From Planctomycetota bacterium (GTDB taxonomy: Bacteria; Planctomycetota; Planctomycetia; Isosphaerales; Isosphaeraceae), in contig JAJYWB010000005.1 in assembly GCA_021791715.1 (NCBI GenBank), forward strand, positions 58,666 through 122,665: a stretch of 64,000 bases of DNA, given 5' to 3'. Both the position numbers and the translations under genes were made by a program. Each line of letters starts with the position of its first letter. The stretch's first letter is position 1. The notes below the pieces were generated by a model. The model was not told the DNA's origin. It searched no databases and worked only from the letters and a program-made list of their open reading frames with translations. Of this stretch, positions 39,042-46,691 are shown piece by piece.

Positions 39042-40847
39042 ATGGAAGTGATTATCGGCATCGATCTTGGCACGACGAATAGCGAGGTCGCGGTGATACG
39101 ATCGGGCTCTCCCGTCGTATTAACCGACGACGGCGACCCGATCCTGCCGTCGGTCGTCGGGCTCGATCCGCAAGGGAAATTGCTCGTCGGCCGCGCCGCG
39201 AGGAACCAATACGTGCTCGCCCCCGAACGGACGATCCGTTCGATCAAGCGGAAGATGGGGCAAGACGTAACCGTCGAGCTTGGGAAAGAAAAATACAGGC
39301 CGCAGGAAATCTCGGCGATCATTCTTCGCGCCCTTAAGCAGCGCGCCGAGCGAGCGCTCGGTCACGAGGTGAAGAAAGCGGTCATCACCGTTCCCGCGTT
39401 TTTCAACGAGGGGCAGCGAGAGGCCACGCGCGAGGCGGGCGAGCTCGCGGGACTCGAGGTCGTACGGATCATCAACGAGCCGACCGCGGCGATCCTCACA
39501 TACGATCCCAATCCTCCCGAGATGGAACGGCTCTTGGTTTACGATCTCGGCGGCGGAACGTTCGACGTTTCGATCGCGATGGTGGAATCGGGCGTTGTTG
39601 AAATCTTGTCAAGTCACGGCGATACGCACCTCGGCGGCGACGATTTCGATCAACGCTTGCTCGATCTCGTATGCGATCGATTTCAAACCGAACACGGAAT
39701 CGACCTTCGCGAATCGATTCGGGCGCGATCGCGTCTCCTCGCCGCGGTTGAGGACGCGAAAAAACGGTTGTCGAGCGAACCCGTCGCGTCGATCACCGAA
39801 GAATTCATCGCCGAGAAGAAAGGCGAGCCGCTTCACCTCTCGATTGAAGTGATGCGCGAAGAATATGAATCATTGATTGAACCGCTGTTGGCGAAAACGT
39901 TGAAATGCGTCGACGACGCGCTCACCGACGCGAATCTGCAGGCGCAACAGATTGATAAAGTCGTGCTCGTCGGAGGAGCGACGCGAACGCCTCTCGTTCA
40001 TCATATGCTTTCGACACGGCTCGGCCGTCCCGTCCATTGCGAGATCGAACCCGACCTCGCGGTCGCGATGGGCGCCGCGGTTCAGGGAGGGTTGATCTCG
40101 GGTGTGGAAGTCGGCACGGTTCTCGTCGATATCACTCCGCACACCCTTGGAATCGAGGTTCTTGATTATTCCGACGGTTTCCCGGCGCCTCACGGTTTTT
40201 CGCCGATCATCGAGCGAAACACGCCGTTGCCGGTCTCGAAAACCGAGATCTATTCGACTTCGAGAGACGGCCAGATCGTCGCGTCGATCCGCGTGTTTCA
40301 AGGTGAGGAGGACGACACAAGGCTGAATTCGCTCGTCGGCGAGTTCCAAATCCAGGGCCTCGCCCCCGTTCCCTATCCCAATCAGATTTTGGTCAAGCTC
40401 GATCTCGATCTCAACGGAATCCTCAAGGTGACCGCGACCGAACGCGCCACGGGGTTGGCCAAACATGTTGTGATTGAAAACATGATGGAGCGTTTTCGCA
40501 AACGCGAACGCGTCGGCGCGCTCGATCGTATCAACGAGCTCTTCGCCGATTCCGACGACGACTCCTTTTCTCCGACAAAGCCCGGCGCGCTTTCGATCGA
40601 GGCTTCGTTCGATTCTCAGAAGGAGGAAAACTCGGACGACGCCGAATTGCGCGAAACGATCGAAACGGCGCGTTCGCTGATCGCCAAATCGGAAACGCTC
40701 GCCGCGTCGGCCGCGGGAGAAGACGCCGCTGAAATGAGAGGACTTGTTCAAGACTTGCAAGCCGCGATTTCACGCAATTCGATCGACGATATCCGACGCG
40801 TCTCGGCGGCGCTCGAAGACATCGTTTACTATCTGAGCGACGTTTAA
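39042..40847 (+). CDS. dnaK: DnaK-family (Hsp70) chaperone, divergent form
   Basis: A 601-residue Hsp70. The ATPase domain shows IIGIDLGTTNSEVAV (phosphate 1), PAFFNEGQREATREAGELAG, IINEPTAAILTY, VYDLGGGTFDVSIAMVESG (phosphate 2) and VVLVGGATRTPLVHHML (adenosine site). The substrate-binding domain follows (LVDITPHTLGIEVLD and VKLDLDLNGILKVTATERATG). After it the helical lid is short and the usual C-terminal disordered tail is absent, so the protein is about 35 residues shorter than E. coli DnaK. AAAGG lies 8 bases upstream of the ATG. It is the fourth gene of the operon and is probably a second, specialised Hsp70. Confidence 0.93.
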   Translation: MEVIIGIDLGTTNSEVAVIRSGSPVVLTDDGDPILPSVVGLDPQGKLLVGRAARNQYVLAPERTIRSIKRKMGQDVTVELGKEKYRPQEISAIILRALKQRAERALGHEVKKAVITVPAFFNEGQREATREAGELAGLEVVRIINEPTAAILTYDPNPPEMERLLVYDLGGGTFDVSIAMVESGVVEILSSHGDTHLGGDDFDQRLLDLVCDRFQTEHGIDLRESIRARSRLLAAVEDAKKRLSSEPVASITEEFIAEKKGEPLHLSIEVMREEYESLIEPLLAKTLKCVDDALTDANLQAQQIDKVVLVGGATRTPLVHHMLSTRLGRPVHCEIEPDLAVAMGAAVQGGLISGVEVGTVLVDITPHTLGIEVLDYSDGFPAPHGFSPIIERNTPLPVSKTEIYSTSRDGQIVASIRVFQGEEDDTRLNSLVGEFQIQGLAPVPYPNQILVKLDLDLNGILKVTATERATGLAKHVVIENMMERFRKRERVGALDRINELFADSDDDSFSPTKPGALSIEASFDSQKEENSDDAELRETIETARSLIAKSETLAASAAGEDAAEMRGLVQDLQAAISRNSIDDIRRVSAALEDIVYYLSDV

Positions 40848-40852
40848 CCCGA

Positions 40853-41179
40853 ATGATCGAACCGACGACCGAAGCGACGATGCGCTGTCCGACCTGCCGC
40901 GCCGTGCAACCCTGGTCCGACTCGTGCCGACGCTGCAAAACCGATCTCCGTTTGTTGCGCGAGCTCGCGGAGCGATTCGAGGAATCGCGTCGCTCCTGTC
41001 TCGCCGAATTGCGGCGAAACCGCTTCCGCGCTGCGCTCGAACACGCGCGCGAATGCGTTCTCTTGCGTAATAACGCCGATTCGCTCCGCCTCCTCGCCGT
41101 TTGCGAACTGCTTAATCATAACTGGACCTCGGCGCGTACGCTCGCTTCCACGCTAATATCTCATAATGACGGGTCCTGA
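40853..41179 (+). CDS. Zinc-ribbon protein with helical repeat, last gene of the Hsp70 operon
   Basis: A 108-residue protein starting five bases after the dnaK stop. The N-terminus has MRCPTCRAVQPWSDSCRRCK, two CxxC pairs that form a zinc ribbon. Residues 35-105 are helical and TPR-like (AALEHARECVLLRNNADSLRLLAV). I do not know a named family. The tight spacing to dnaK indicates co-translation, and a small zinc-ribbon plus TPR adaptor fits a role in recruiting clients or partner proteins to the chaperone. There is no visible terminator directly after it; the DR/IR element begins about 70 bases downstream. Confidence 0.7.
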   Translation: MIEPTTEATMRCPTCRAVQPWSDSCRRCKTDLRLLRELAERFEESRRSCLAELRRNRFRAALEHARECVLLRNNADSLRLLAVCELLNHNWTSARTLASTLISHNDGS

Positions 41180-41243
41180 TTTACTAAAAGGCTATCCGGA
41201 AAGAATACCGCGTAGATCGCGCGAGTTTAGGACGATCACGAAA

Positions 41244-41535
41244 TTGGGAGGGCGAACTCTTATGGGAGGACGAACCTCCTGGTGAGCCGGCATGTTTTCA
41301 TTATTGTCTAGGGTGAACCCGTTTAGAAGGGTGAACTCTTATGGGAGGGCGAACCTCCTGGTGAGCCGGCATGTTTTCATTATTGTGTAGGGCGAACCCG
41401 TTTGTCGGGGACACCGAAATTGGGACGGCGAACCTCCCGGCGAGCCTCTTCGTCAAATCATCGATCAACGGCGACGCTCTTTGCATAAAGAATAAATATA
41501 TTAATTCGGCTCACCGGGAGGTTCGCCCTCCCAAG
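41244..41535. mobile_element. MITE-like intergenic repeat element with inverted ends
   Basis: Two 75-base direct copies (41250-41324 and 41329-41403) share GGGAGG-type starts, GAACTCTTATGGGAGG, CGAACCTCCTGGTGAGCCGG and CATGTTTTCATTATTG, with only a few differences. A third partial copy of the CGAACCTCC-GGCGAGCC core lies at 41429-41447. Its inverted form, GGCTCACCGGGAGG followed by TTCGCCCTCCC, lies at 41508-41532. The element therefore has direct repeats flanked by an inverted copy, like a non-autonomous transposon remnant. No transposase frame is present. It lies at the 3' end of both the chaperone operon and the outer-membrane gene. Confidence 0.65.
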
Positions 41536-41708
41536 CAAAACAATCAATTATAATCTCATAATAAATGTGCGATATCGACGGACAAGAAGCGACTGAAACC
41601 GGGAAAATTAATTCGAGTTCGATAGGATTGAGTTTCCGGATAGACTCTACGATGAATTAAAAATTCTGAATCCCGAACGCACGCTCCCCCTCCGTGCGGC
41701 CTGAACAA

Positions 41709-42911
41709 TCAAAAATTTTTGATAACCTGAAAGATCGTCTGCGTTTGAAACGGCAATGGACCGACGAGGGGAACCTCGACGCCTCCAAGGAAATACCATT
41801 CGTTACCGATGCCGAACCGAAAACCGGGAGTGAGGCTAAAATAGCTCGCGTTCCCTCCGCTGATCGCGGTGTGCAGGTTCGCCGCCACGTCGACGACGAG
41901 ATTCGGCAAAAACCTGGCGTCGGGCGCGGTGACGTACTTACCGACCGCGAACCGCGCGTCGAACGACGAAAACGTCGACGGCGACGCGTTGAACCCCGTC
42001 CAGGGATTGCCCGAAAGGAGCGCGATTTTGGCGGGCGTGAGGTTCGTGGGAGTCGTCACGCCGACTCCGCCGCGGAAAACCCAGCCGCCGAACGGATTCG
42101 CCCAAAACTCGACGTCGGGCGAAAGGCTCGCGACGCCGTTTCCGTTCAATCCGTTCCCAGTTGGAACACGCACGAATAAATTCGACGTCACCGAATATCG
42201 CTTATCCTCGGCGAGCAAAAACCGCGGCGCGATCGTCAAATCGCCCACCCCCGTATCATAATTCGTCGGAGATTTGCCGGGCGATCGCGGATCCGAAACG
42301 ACGAACGGAAAAAACCAGCCGATCTCGAAACGTCGACTCAATGGTGTGAACATAAAATAACTTCCATTGTATAAATCGGCGTTCCCGGGAAGACCGCGCG
42401 CGTAGCCGAACGAGAAGACGAAAAGGCGATAAAACGCTCCGTCCGCGTTGTTAACCCACGTTTGACGCGGAGCGATTCGGCTCGTCCCGTCGGTCGACGG
42501 AACGGGCGCGTACGCCTCGTCCCAGCCTTCGGATAAAAAGCCCGCGAGCCCGAGAGGCCGCCAACGTTCGGGGCGAAGCGGACCGAAGAGCGATTGTCCG
42601 ATCACATCGGCGAACGATTCCCTCCGAAAAGGTTCAACCAGAACTTGCGGAGGCTCGACGACGGGATCTTCGATCGACTCGCCCGGAGCGAACAGCGGAG
42701 TCGTTCCGACGGACGAATTCGCTCGAACCTCCTCAATATTGGGCGGATTCGTCGCATTCGACACGGGGAACGATGGATTCGATACGGGCGTTTGCGAGAA
42801 CCCGATCCGCGCAGCGACCGCGACGAAGATCGTCATAATAAATAAACGGATCAGAGCCTGATAAGTCCTTTCTTCGCATCGATGAAATCCGCCGTAATGT
42901 TTTCGGAACAT
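41709..42911 (-). CDS. Putative outer-membrane beta-barrel protein under a fluoride riboswitch
   Basis: A 400-residue exported protein. The signal peptide covers about residues 1-39 (LIRLFIMTIFVAVAARIGFS). The mature part alternates short amphipathic strands and loops, with GVGDLTIAPRFLL and SNLFVRVPTGN matching the pattern of the MetA-pathway phenol-degradation/transporter-type barrels, and it ends in FQVIKNF, a C-terminal phenylalanine as required by the BAM machinery. A fluoride riboswitch lies directly upstream (42951-43054), about 40 bases from the ATG. A paralogue lies at 44187-45443; both share a long identical stretch (VPSTDGTSRIAPRQ). What the barrel transports is unknown; fluoride-induced expression is inferred from the riboswitch. 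The ribosome binding site (CGCGAGA) is weak. Confidence 0.72.
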   Translation of the reverse strand: MFRKHYGGFHRCEERTYQALIRLFIMTIFVAVAARIGFSQTPVSNPSFPVSNATNPPNIEEVRANSSVGTTPLFAPGESIEDPVVEPPQVLVEPFRRESFADVIGQSLFGPLRPERWRPLGLAGFLSEGWDEAYAPVPSTDGTSRIAPRQTWVNNADGAFYRLFVFSFGYARGLPGNADLYNGSYFMFTPLSRRFEIGWFFPFVVSDPRSPGKSPTNYDTGVGDLTIAPRFLLAEDKRYSVTSNLFVRVPTGNGLNGNGVASLSPDVEFWANPFGGWVFRGGVGVTTPTNLTPAKIALLSGNPWTGFNASPSTFSSFDARFAVGKYVTAPDARFLPNLVVDVAANLHTAISGGNASYFSLTPGFRFGIGNEWYFLGGVEVPLVGPLPFQTQTIFQVIKNF

Positions 42912-42950
42912 ATTAGTTTATCTCGCGGTACGGGTTCTTGTTCGGCGCGC

Positions 42951-42999
42951 AAAAAAAGACTCCCGCCGGGGACCAAAAAATTGGTCTTTGGCAGGAGTC
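42951..42999 (-). terminator. Intrinsic terminator of the fluoride riboswitch
   Basis: Read on the minus strand, GACTCCTGCCAAAGACCAA pairs with TTGGTCCCCGGCGGGAGTC across a TTTT loop, and TTTTTTT follows at 42957-42951. Its 5' arm is the 3' part of the aptamer, so aptamer pseudoknot and terminator exclude each other. Confidence 0.9.
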
Positions 43000-43054
43000 A
43001 TCAGCCCCGAACGAGCTTGGGGCGGTTGATCGGTCGGGCGAACTCCATCACCCG
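42951..43054 (-). promoter_or_regulatory. Fluoride riboswitch (crcB motif)
   Basis: On the minus strand the RNA reads CGGGUGAUGGAGUUCGCCCG (43054-43035), then a linker with AACC, then a GCCCC...GGGGC hairpin, then UGAUGACUCCUGCC. These are the conserved parts of the crcB/fluoride aptamer; the GAUGGAGUUCGCC and GAUGACUCCU segments are close to those in the published B. cereus crcB riboswitch. GGAGU in the first loop can pair with ACUCC, forming the pseudoknot. ACUCCUGCC alternatively pairs with GGCGGGAGU in the terminator, giving an on-switch: fluoride binding prevents termination. It controls the barrel-protein gene at 42911. Confidence 0.9.
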
Positions 43055-43325
43055 TTTTTTCGGCTCGACACGACGAATCGCGCCGTGTCTCAGGCTTCAT
43101 TATCGGCGAATCGGCGGCATGACTTTAAGGATAAATGCGATTTTAGCGGATCTAGCATGGCGGGAAGACGAATCCTCTTGTATCGGATCACACGAATAAA
43201 TTCACTTATTTATATAATCTTGTCATCTTTCTTCCCCACCTCGGTTCCCAAGCGGATCGGCTGGACAATCCTCTACAAATCGTCTTCAATGAGGAGGTGG
43301 AACGCGTTTTGGGAGGTATCGCTTC
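43055..43325. other. Intergenic region between riboswitch and Uma2 gene
   Basis: This stretch must contain the promoter for the riboswitch (minus strand) and for the Uma2 gene (plus strand). It is AT-richer towards 43190-43235. I see no gene or hairpin plus T-run in it. Confidence 0.5.
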
Positions 43326-43895
43326 ATGAGCGCGGCGACGAAAATCAAGATCGATCGACAAACTCTCGCCGATCTGGCTCGGATCGACGCGAAGGCCGAG
43401 TTGATCAATGGAAGGATCGTTACACAAATGCCGACTGGTTATCTCCCGAGCCGGGTGGCCTTTCGGATCGCGCGAGGTCTCGATGATTTCGCCGATTCGA
43501 CGCGAACGGGCTACGCCTTCGGCGATAACGTCGGATTTATCGTTCCGAGGCTGCGCTCCGGACGCGAATCCTTTGCTCCCGACGCTTCGTTTTACATAGG
43601 CGCGATACCGTCCAATCCAATGCGATTCATCGAAGGCGCGCCGACTTTCGCGGTCGAGGTTCGAAGCGAGAACGATTACGGAACGTCGGCCGAAGCCGAA
43701 GCCGCCGCGAAACGACTCGATTATTTCGAAGCGGGAACGCGTGTCGTATGGGACGTCGATCCGATCTTAAAACGAATTCTGAAATATCGATCCGATTCGC
43801 CTCTCGCGCCGATCGCCTTCGCTCCGGGCGGGATCGCCGACGCCGATCCCGCGGTCGCGGGTTGGACGATCGAAGTCGATCGTGTTTTCGCATAA
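43326..43895 (+). CDS. Uma2-family (DUF820) endonuclease-like protein
   Basis: A 189-residue protein of the PD-(D/E)XK superfamily. Conserved points are VGFIVPR, FAPDASFYIG (the PD of the motif), TFAVEVRSEND (the ExK-like strand with E, here followed by R and E), AAAKRLDYFEAGTRVVWDVDP and RVFA at the end. The family spreads widely in cyanobacteria and planctomycetes with many paralogues; its biological role is not defined. GGGAGG lies 8 bases before the ATG. A truncated relative lies at 45612-45888 and both sit beside barrel-protein genes of a duplicated pair. Confidence 0.85.
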   Translation: MSAATKIKIDRQTLADLARIDAKAELINGRIVTQMPTGYLPSRVAFRIARGLDDFADSTRTGYAFGDNVGFIVPRLRSGRESFAPDASFYIGAIPSNPMRFIEGAPTFAVEVRSENDYGTSAEAEAAAKRLDYFEAGTRVVWDVDPILKRILKYRSDSPLAPIAFAPGGIADADPAVAGWTIEVDRVFA

Positions 43896-44186
43896 CAAGA
43901 CAGATCGATATCTCCATGAATTTTGTTTAAATTTTAGAGCGTTCGTTTCAAGGCGAAATTCAATAATCTTTAATCATGATTTCAAATGGTCGGCTAAGCG
44001 TTCGATTCAGCGTCGAAGTCGATCGACGCCGATATGTCCGATCGTTCCAAGAATTTCTTTCGGATCCGAGGCGTATAAATAACTGAGACATAATCAAGAA
44101 CGAATTCTCGAAGCTCGGATTGTTCGTCCGCCAAACGGTTATCCAATCGATCAAAACGGCTCCGAGGATTATTTCGAAATTTGTAT
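43896..44186. other. Convergent intergenic spacer
   Basis: This 291-base stretch separates the 3' ends of the Uma2 gene (plus) and of the second barrel gene (minus). It is AT-richer than its neighbours. I see no gene and no hairpin plus T-run strong enough to call a terminator. Confidence 0.45.
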
Positions 44187-45443
44187 TTAAAATGGTTTAA
44201 TAATCTGAAAGAATGATTGTGTTTGAAACGGAGTGATCCCGACCATAGGGACCTCGATACCCGCCCGGAAGACCCAATTATTCCGAAGGCCGAAAAGTAT
44301 CCCCGGAGTGAGGCTAAAATAGGTGTAATTCCCGCCGCTAATCGCCGTATGCAGATTGGCGGCGACATCAACGCATAAGTTTGGCATGATCTTCGCGTCG
44401 GAAGGACGAAGGTATTTGCCGACCGCGAATCGAGCGTCGAACGACGAGAACGGCCCCGGCGATCCGTAAAACCCTGTCCAGGGGGGGCTTTTATCGAGGA
44501 GAGCGATCTTGGACGCCGACAAATTCGTCGGCTCGGTAACGCCGAGTCCTCCTCGCACCACCCAACCCGTAAACGGATTGGCCCAAAACTCGATATCGGG
44601 AGAAAGGCTCGTCACGTTATTGCCGATCCGGGCGTTTCCCGTGGGAACTCGAACGAAAAGGTTTGTGCTGATCGTGTAACGCTTGTCCTCGGCGAGCAGG
44701 AACCTGGGGATAATCGTCAGATCTCCCGCCCCGGTCCAATAATCGGTCGGTCCAGTTCCCAGGGCGTTCGGCGCCGATTGGACGAACGGAACTCCCCAAC
44801 CGATCTCGAACCTTCGGCTAAAAGGTGTGAACATACCAAAAATACCCGTATATTCGTTGGTATTACCGGGAAGTCCGCGGGCGTAACCGAACGAAAAGAG
44901 GAAGAGCCGATAAAACGCTCCGTCGTCGCTGTTAACCCAAGGCTGACGGGGCGCGATGCGCGACGTTCCATCGGTTGAGGGAACAGGGGCGTACGGCTCA
45001 TCCCACCCCTCGCTGAAAAACGAACCGATGCCAAGCGGTCGCCAACGATCCGAACGAAGCGTGCCGATCAAAGATTGACCGATCACATTCAAAATCGATT
45101 CCGATCGATTCGAAGTCTGAGGTTGTATCGAACTAAAAGGAGACGCTTCGACGGGTGGGTTGGACGACGACGAACCGTCGCCGGACGTCGAAGCGAAGGG
45201 ATTTGGATCAACCAAATCATTTGCGGTGGAATTCGTCGCGCTTTCGTCGAAGACTCGCGTCGAAATGGAACCGCTTCCGAACGGAGAAGACGGATTTTGT
45301 GAAGGGATCGTTTGCGCTTCGGCGGGCGTCTCGGCCGATCCCGTTGTAACCGTAAAGATAACAATAAATACAAGACAAAATACAGAACGATATGTAATTC
45401 GTACGCTTCGATTGGCCCCGCAAACCCGCAAGTCGTCACCCAT
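44187..45443 (-). CDS. Putative outer-membrane beta-barrel protein, paralogue of the riboswitch-controlled gene
   Basis: A 418-residue exported protein. The signal peptide is about residues 13-37 (SVFCLVFIVIFTVTTGSA). The part from VIGQSLIGTLRSDRWRPLG to the C-terminus is clearly homologous to the 41709-42911 protein: SEGWDEPYAPVPSTDGTSR, GDLTIIPRFLLAEDKRY and FVRVPTGNARIG recur. It ends FQIIKPF, again with a terminal phenylalanine suited to outer-membrane insertion. No fluoride-riboswitch motif is present upstream of this copy. The N-terminal linker is serine/asparagine-rich and differs between copies. Transport substrate is unknown. Confidence 0.72.
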   Translation of the reverse strand: MGDDLRVCGANRSVRITYRSVFCLVFIVIFTVTTGSAETPAEAQTIPSQNPSSPFGSGSISTRVFDESATNSTANDLVDPNPFASTSGDGSSSSNPPVEASPFSSIQPQTSNRSESILNVIGQSLIGTLRSDRWRPLGIGSFFSEGWDEPYAPVPSTDGTSRIAPRQPWVNSDDGAFYRLFLFSFGYARGLPGNTNEYTGIFGMFTPFSRRFEIGWGVPFVQSAPNALGTGPTDYWTGAGDLTIIPRFLLAEDKRYTISTNLFVRVPTGNARIGNNVTSLSPDIEFWANPFTGWVVRGGLGVTEPTNLSASKIALLDKSPPWTGFYGSPGPFSSFDARFAVGKYLRPSDAKIMPNLCVDVAANLHTAISGGNYTYFSLTPGILFGLRNNWVFRAGIEVPMVGITPFQTQSFFQIIKPF

Positions 45444-45611
45444 GATTCCACCCGCCTCGACACATGGAAATCGGCGTCAGGCCGAAACGATTCGATTAAT
45501 ACCTCGGCGCCTGGTTTTCGAGCCCACCTTTAATTCAGGACCTCGATATCCAGTTAATCGACCGGATCGCATTCCGACTTGAACGACTCTAGCGATTAAA
45601 ACGAGACGAAC

Positions 45612-45888
45612 GATCCGATTCATCGAAGGCGAGCCGACTTTCGCGGTTGAAGCTCGAAGCGAGAACGATTACGGAGCGTCGGCCGAAGCCGAAGCCGCCG
45701 CGAAACGACTCGATTATTTCGAAGCGGGTACGCGTGTCGTCTGGGATGTCGATCCGATCTTAAAAAAAATTCTGAAATATCGATCCGATTCGCCTCTCGC
45801 GACGATCGCCTTCGCTCCGGGTGGGATCGCCGACGCCGAGCCCGCGGTCGCGGGCCGGCCGATCGAAGCCGATCGTAATATCGCATGA
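45612..45888 (+). pseudogene. Truncated Uma2 gene, duplicate of the intact copy
   Basis: The sequence from 45612 to the TGA at 45886-45888 translates as RFIEGEPTFAVEARSEND, then AEAEAAAKRLDYFEAGTR and VVWDVDPILKKILKYRSD, nearly identical to residues 98-189 of the Uma2 gene at 43326. The first half of the gene, including the PD motif, is missing and no start codon with a ribosome binding site is in place. The copy lies beside the second barrel gene just as the intact one lies beside the first, so the fragment results from a module duplication followed by loss. Confidence 0.88.
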
Positions 45889-45950
45889 TTAACTATTTGG
45901 GATATAATTTCTCCGATATATGTTGTTATACTTATGCTTGAGGATCGTTC

Positions 45951-46691
45951 CTAGCCTTGTTCGGCGAGAAGATCGCGCGTCGCCTGTTGCGCGGGGTTTT
46001 CGAGAACGCGATCGGGAGGGCCCGATTCGACGACTCGGCCTTTGTCGAAAACGTGCACGGTGTGCGCGACCCTTCTCGCGAAGCCGATCGCGTGGGTGAC
46101 GACGATCATCGTTTGGCCGTCGCGCGCCAGATCGGCCATCACCGAAAGGACCTCGCCCGTCATTCGAGGGTCGAGCGCGCTCGTCGGCTCGTCGAAGAGG
46201 ATCGCCTGGGGACGCATCGCGAGCGCTCGCGCGATCGCCACCCGCTGCTGTTGCCCTCCCGAAAGCTCGCTCGGCGCCGCGGTCAATCGATCTCCCATCC
46301 CCACGCGATCCAATAATCGGCGCGCCCGCTCCTCGGCCTCGGGTCGCGAAAGACCCAAAACGCGAATCGGCGGCTCGGCGACGTTGCGCAAAACATTCCA
46401 ATGCGCGAATAAGTGAAACGCTTGAAACACCATGCCGATTTTTTGACAGATGCGCCGGTTCGCCTCGCGACGACGAGCCTGCGGAACGCGCGCGTCGATC
46501 GTTTCGCCGTCGATCGTCACGCTTCCGCCGTCGAACGATTCGAGCCCGTTCAAACATCGCAGGAACGTGCTTTTTCCCCCTCCCGAAGGGCCGATGATCG
46601 CCGCGACCTCGCCCCGCGAAACCTCGAGCGAAACGCCCCGAAGAATCTCGGTTTTTCCATAACGCTTCCAAAGATCATTTGTTTGAATCAT
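45951..46691 (-). CDS. glnQ: Polar amino-acid ABC transporter, ATP-binding protein
   Basis: A 246-residue ATPase. The Walker A motif GPSGGGKSTFLRC (residue 33 on), the ABC signature LSGGQQQRVAIARALA and Walker B AILFDEPTSALDP are complete, and the H-loop His is in VVTHAIGFARRVA. KIGMVFQAFHLFAHW is the Q-loop typical of glutamine-type importers. Its ATG overlaps the TGA of the permease gene (ATGA), showing coupled translation. It powers uptake through the fused binding-protein/permease encoded upstream. Confidence 0.93.
   Translation of the reverse strand: MIQTNDLWKRYGKTEILRGVSLEVSRGEVAAIIGPSGGGKSTFLRCLNGLESFDGGSVTIDGETIDARVPQARRREANRRICQKIGMVFQAFHLFAHWNVLRNVAEPPIRVLGLSRPEAEERARRLLDRVGMGDRLTAAPSELSGGQQQRVAIARALAMRPQAILFDEPTSALDPRMTGEVLSVMADLARDGQTMIVVTHAIGFARRVAHTVHVFDKGRVVESGPPDRVLENPAQQATRDLLAEQG

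Follow-up and report, generated by a model that had tools for sequence, protein, structure and literature searches.

Control of gene expression in the ON sense by fluoride has already been established elsewhere for the aptamer class RF01734, the crcB motif. The targets known for this class are crcB/Fluc, CLC-F, Na/H antiporters, enolase, pyrophosphatase and formate hydrogenlyase (PMC2864571; PMC11139923), and a model in which the aptamer overlaps a terminator was proposed for the crcB motif in PMC2864571. The outer membrane and porins are not mentioned in a 2024 review of fluoride resistance (PMC11139923), and current accounts of bacterial fluoride resistance stop at the inner membrane. A search of the literature for fluoride riboswitches together with porins or the outer membrane returned incidental papers only, the primary target list of Baker et al. 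2012 not being covered. Within this limit, it agrees with an earlier note on this DNA, which knew of no described fluoride-regulated outer-membrane barrel. The locus concerned lies in the window, i.e., the whole stretch of 64,000 nucleotides that was analysed.

Fluoride aptamer and overlapping terminator

An Rfam scan of positions 40000-46000 of the window gives a single match, RF01734, on the minus strand at 42985..43061 (cmscan, 53.8 bits, E 3.7e-13). This match covers the full model (1-64) and meets the cut-off of the family (gathering score 34). The aptamer comprises the P1 hairpin GGGUGAUGGAGUUCGCCC, the P3 helix GCCCC/GGGGC and a pseudoknot pairing GGAGU with ACUCC, and all the highly conserved letters of the RF01734 aptamer are present. 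The covariance search that the earlier note had called for thus bears out its claim of a fluoride (crcB) aptamer, all the letters that it cited being found; the element was the right one, and only its 5' edge lies about 7 nt further out, at 43061. RF01734 is matched only once, by this switch, in the whole assembly (6.5 Mb, 92% complete). The element is, by its sequence, a genuine fluoride riboswitch, its binding of fluoride and the resulting change of expression being inferred.

The aptamer is followed on the same strand by a predicted expression platform, an intrinsic terminator made of a 10-bp stem GACUCCUGCC/GGCGGGAGUC and an inner stem (42958..42999), and by a tract of seven U read directly from the sequence (42951..42957). 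The 51-nt terminator element folds at -28.3 kcal/mol versus -10.5 +/- 2.6 kcal/mol in shuffled sequences (z -6.8). A simple terminator scan missed it, probably because the inner loop interrupts the stem. The stem competing with the pseudoknot strand and the seven U that follow, as described in the earlier note, are therefore real. The aptamer strand that forms the pseudoknot with GGAGU also serves as the 5' arm of the terminator. This overlap, together with the z-score of -6.8, shows at the level of sequence that aptamer and expression platform are mutually exclusive; since both structures cannot form together, fluoride should turn the gene ON.

Comparison of ten switches that precede barrel genes in Isosphaeraceae supports this architecture. 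Pairing in the aptamer helices and the terminator amounts to 99% across them. Both partners are altered in four of the pairs (eight such cells); none of 500 shuffles reaches this number of cells, and none is left when the partners are slid by 1-3 columns. Compensatory changes occur in both P1 and P3, so that covariation supports these RF01734 helices, and the terminator helix of 10 pairs is 98% paired, with two pairs altered on both sides. The pseudoknot strands do not vary among the ten switches and are thus uninformative on covariation. It should be kept in mind that these counts overstate independence because the ten sequences are related. Fluoride-ON transcriptional control of the barrel gene is well supported, the ON action itself being inferred in the absence of data on fluoride binding or transcription.

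Putative barrel gene, paralogue and inferred upstream promoter

The regulated gene (41709..42911, minus strand) encodes a putative outer-membrane beta-barrel of 400 aa, of a divergent PF13557 type. As the earlier note had stated, it is the only gene in range: it starts at 42911, 40 nt past the U-tract, whose end at 42951 was the left edge of the element given there, and its product ends in Phe. It is apparently monocistronic, the next likely downstream genes being on the opposite strand. The protein begins with a signal-like stretch at its N-terminus, continues with some 60 variable residues and closes with a strand-rich domain that has Phe as its last residue. It matches no Pfam family, the cut-offs of PF13557 and Porin_O_P (PF07396) not being reached, and a profile search against solved structures found nothing real. 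An AlphaFold2 model built from eight sequences is strand-rich with a pLDDT of 38.6, a confidence too poor to prove a barrel or a pore. In two orthologues that are about 70% identical, Phenol_MetA_deg (PF13557, cut-off 22) is found with 28.0 bits (L039) and 28.6 bits (L041, from the Isosphaeraceae Singulisphaera acidiphila DSM 18658). The exported barrel with a terminal Phe put forward in the earlier note is thus upheld through its close orthologues, and not by the Pfam search or the structural model of the window protein itself. That the product is an outer-membrane barrel is inferred, as is its location. Charge counts of the barrels gave no anion-selective signature and are uninformative, and a scan of viral contigs found no relatives.

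Homologues of the protein occur in 32 of the 45 genomes of the order. Some close orthologues (S. acidiphila, G021 and G031) lack the switch, which indicates that the barrel also has a fluoride-independent role; S. acidiphila DSM 18658 does have a fluoride switch, but in front of crcB. In the tree of the barrels, the switch appears in three separate places, which implies that it was gained and lost, or that the cassette moved. The window itself carries a switchless paralogue (44187..45443, minus strand; 58% identity by BLASTP) without any RF01734 match. Such a paralogue is found just upstream of the switch in the window genome (G000) and in G024, and as a partial copy in G016. A weak sigma-28-like motif upstream of the paralogue (45555-45582) has three mismatches and is near chance level. 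A gene for a Uma2-type nuclease (PF05685; 43326-43895, plus strand) lies between paralogue and switch, and a second, apparently degraded copy (45620-45886, minus strand) lies upstream of the paralogue; G024 has no intervening Uma2 copy, and about 250 nt separate paralogue and switch there. The window genome also has a single CrcB gene (PF02537; G000:C119:30076-30411), which is not preceded by an RF01734 switch. As the genome has one RF01734 match and none at crcB, its sole recognisable fluoride switch serves the barrel, not the exporter.

A simple sigma-70 promoter scan upstream of the aptamer revealed nothing above chance. A sequence resembling a sigma-28 (FliA/WhiG) promoter, TAAAGT-N14-GCCGATAA, is present on the minus strand at 43100..43127 (14/14 match), with its start 66 nt upstream of the aptamer; the genome has no other perfect copy of this motif. 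The sigma-28 consensus is TAAAGTTT-n11-GCCGATAA (PMC2859248). Compared with it, the window sequence has both elements perfect and one additional base in the spacer (TAAA-N16 versus N15). Of 13 barrel switches, 12 match at least 10 of the 14 positions, the motif lying 38-66 nt ahead of the aptamer with a constant spacer (TAAA-N16 in 12 of 12); none of 36 non-barrel switches does so, their scores never exceeding 9. The difference in score (Mann-Whitney p 1.2e-7) is descriptive only, since the motif was first noticed in these same loci. A FliA/WhiG sigma factor is found over the cut-off in 44 of the 45 genomes of the order, including that of the window (G000:C3:30227-30895). It is inferred that 43100-43127 is a sigma-28-like promoter, for which there are no transcription data.

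Besides the window, the motif loci are L022, L023, L025-L031, L090 and L095, the longer spacer being seen at barrel fluoride switches only; a wider regulon of planctomycete surface genes may use this longer-spacer promoter. The possibility that a sigma-28-like promoter is common to all barrels of these families is weakly supported, most switchless homologues being without a candidate and some having one.

Switch and terminator also appear to be shared between barrel families. The cassettes found before two unrelated families have a mean identity of 60%, versus 42% between barrel and non-barrel cassettes. For example, the porin switch of G014 is nearest to the PF13557-like switch of G016 (76%), not to the crcB switch that adjoins it. 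The cassette tree (about 110 nt) is poorly resolved, and this comparison rests on identities, not on topology.

Recurrence among planctomycetes

RF01734 matches were collected from 45 genomes of the order (15 of them with a total of 19 matches), 398 genomes of the class and 392 genomes of the phylum, the target of each switch being the first gene downstream in the retrieved DNA. In Isosphaeraceae, 10 of the 19 switches are followed by a barrel gene: four encode homologues of the window protein (G000, G024, G016 and G044, the last only about 37% identical) and six encode Porin_O_P proteins (G014, G017, G018, G019, G020 and G032), membership in PF07396 having been checked in two of these six closely related proteins. 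In nine of these ten genomes, no further switch was found beside that of the barrel. The targets of the remaining switches of the family include crcB, CLC, enolase and an NADH-dehydrogenase-like subunit. Alginate_exp barrels are the targets of three switches from a second family of the class; two of these proteins were scanned and match PF13372 with E 1e-86 or better, and the third is a close homologue. No barrel target was seen among the 45 switches inspected outside the class, where the targets are CrcB, CLC, antiporters and dynamin-like GTPases. The same arrangement, which the earlier note had proposed to look for in other planctomycetes, thus recurs with three different barrel families.

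Two islands place the barrels among accepted fluoride-response genes. In G014:C58, a porin gene and crcB are divergent and carry separate switches about 200 nt apart. In G285:C492, genes for an Alginate_exp barrel, a Na/H exchanger, a SulP permease and a metallophosphatase-like protein are each preceded by a switch within 12 kb.

Other genes found near or under fluoride switches deserve mention. In G014:C58 (L030:10223-15438, minus strand), a second Porin_O_P paralogue without its own switch adjoins an AcrB-type RND pump. In the second family of the class, a TolC-type outer-membrane efflux protein (OEP) follows a fluoride switch at L099 (G265:C84), and a HlyD/CusB-type adaptor follows one at L115 (G244:C360); these TolC-type and HlyD/CusB-type targets hint at a tripartite efflux system controlled by fluoride. 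In several planctomycete lineages, the first gene after a fluoride switch frequently encodes a dynamin-like GTPase (motif LGQFKRGKTT/S), as at L093, L102, L108 and L114 and, outside the class, at numerous loci (L166-L182), one planctomycete family there carrying such genes repeatedly; a role in membrane repair under fluoride is possible. Cytidylate-kinase-like proteins (MNVVTITRDFGAGGYEVAERLA...) are encoded directly after switches at L104, L118 and L121. A subunit similar to those of NADH dehydrogenase or hydrogenase-4 (PF00146), with more genes downstream, follows a switch at L033:3793-4800 (minus strand; G014:C20), an arrangement resembling the known association of fluoride switches with formate hydrogenlyase.

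Putative role of the barrels and comparison with known systems

Taken together, these data make it reasonably probable that a fluoride-ON transcriptional riboswitch controls an outer-membrane beta-barrel channel that lets exported fluoride leave the periplasm, transport being inferred. Without fluoride, the terminator would form and the barrel gene would be off. Fluoride bound with Mg would stabilise the pseudoknot and block the 10-bp terminator, and transcription by RNA polymerase, in which a sigma factor of the FliA/WhiG type probably takes part, would then proceed into the barrel gene. The barrel would increase the permeability of the outer membrane to small anions, so that fluoride brought to the periplasm by CrcB/Fluc or antiporters could exit before its re-entry as HF. 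The barrel would thus be the outer-membrane half of fluoride export. The recurrence of the switch before three unrelated kinds of channel genes suggests that fluoride stress is answered at the outer membrane, not at the inner one alone, and a pore of a generic kind is favoured by the fact that the three families are unrelated. The new route for fluoride across the outer membrane raised in the earlier note remains an inference as far as transport is concerned. A broader proposal, that in Isosphaeraceae and some relatives an interchangeable cassette (sigma-28-like promoter and fluoride switch) drives the fluoride-exit beta-barrel of the lineage and forms an outer-membrane arm of resistance, is only tentative and may well not hold.

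The need for a dedicated fluoride channel is not obvious, since HF passes membranes freely and ordinary porins should let F- through. The barrels could instead be induced for the uptake of phosphate or other anions, needed since phosphoryl-transfer enzymes are blocked by fluoride in the form of MgF or AlF complexes. Porin_O_P, the phosphate-selective porin family, does account for six of the regulated barrels, and phosphate importers, polyphosphatase and pyrophosphatase are tied to fluoride resistance in the 2024 review (PMC11139923). However, the PF13557-like and Alginate_exp barrels are not phosphate porins, the former having the same cassette nevertheless, and no phosphate-uptake gene was seen beside the switches inspected in the islands, which leaves this explanation an unlikely one.

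Another explanation would be a remodelling of the envelope, in which fluoride, often together with acid stress, leads to a swap of outer-membrane proteins or to the secretion of a polysaccharide that limits HF, the switched barrel replacing a constitutive paralogue. Such a swap would fit with the switchless paralogue that G000 and G024 carry upstream of the switch, and with the partial copy in G016; the sigma-28-like promoter points to the barrel being part of a surface programme, and Alginate_exp barrels secrete polysaccharide in known cases, although this last point relies on the family name only. On the other hand, an extra barrel normally increases permeability, inspection of the two islands revealed no polysaccharide genes, and the use of one cassette with two different barrel families argues for a generic pore; remodelling is thus regarded as rather improbable. 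It is very difficult to believe that the aptamer is a relic or a sensor of something else and the barrel unrelated to fluoride: switchless orthologues do exist and no evidence other than sequence is at hand, but the aptamer core is fully conserved, the terminator covaries across genera, and barrel switches sit beside crcB and antiporter switches in the multi-switch islands.

If the broader proposal of an outer-membrane arm is true, it would give fluoride export a dedicated step at the outer membrane, the first one known. The relevance of an exit from the periplasm would be greatest in acid habitats, where exported fluoride comes back as HF. A switch whose sole target in a genome is a barrel, together with three unrelated barrel families, makes the exit of fluoride from the periplasm directly testable. 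Furthermore, promoter and riboswitch would provide a fluoride-inducible, double-gated expression module for planctomycetes.

Compared with known fluoride riboswitches, the window switch has the same aptamer, an overlapping terminator and the same predicted ON logic. It differs by its target, as known switches control inner-membrane exporters or cytosolic enzymes whereas this one precedes a putative outer-membrane barrel, and by its sigma-28-like promoter, which is absent at the other, non-barrel switches scanned. Among known barrels, Porin_O_P (PF07396, OprO/OprP) has members controlled by six related Isosphaeraceae switches, the window protein not being one of them; OprP and OprO are known from phosphate starvation, not from fluoride. 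In the case of Phenol_MetA_deg (PF13557), for which we know of no described link with fluoride, the close orthologues are over the cut-off whereas the window protein is below it. Alginate_exp (PF13372, AlgE type), with three switch-controlled members in a second family of the class, is unrelated in sequence to the window barrel, and its switches have an expression platform unlike that of the window switch. The class of switch is thus already known, whereas its putative barrel target, as far as the literature searched shows, and the sigma-28-like promoter inferred at barrel switches are new.
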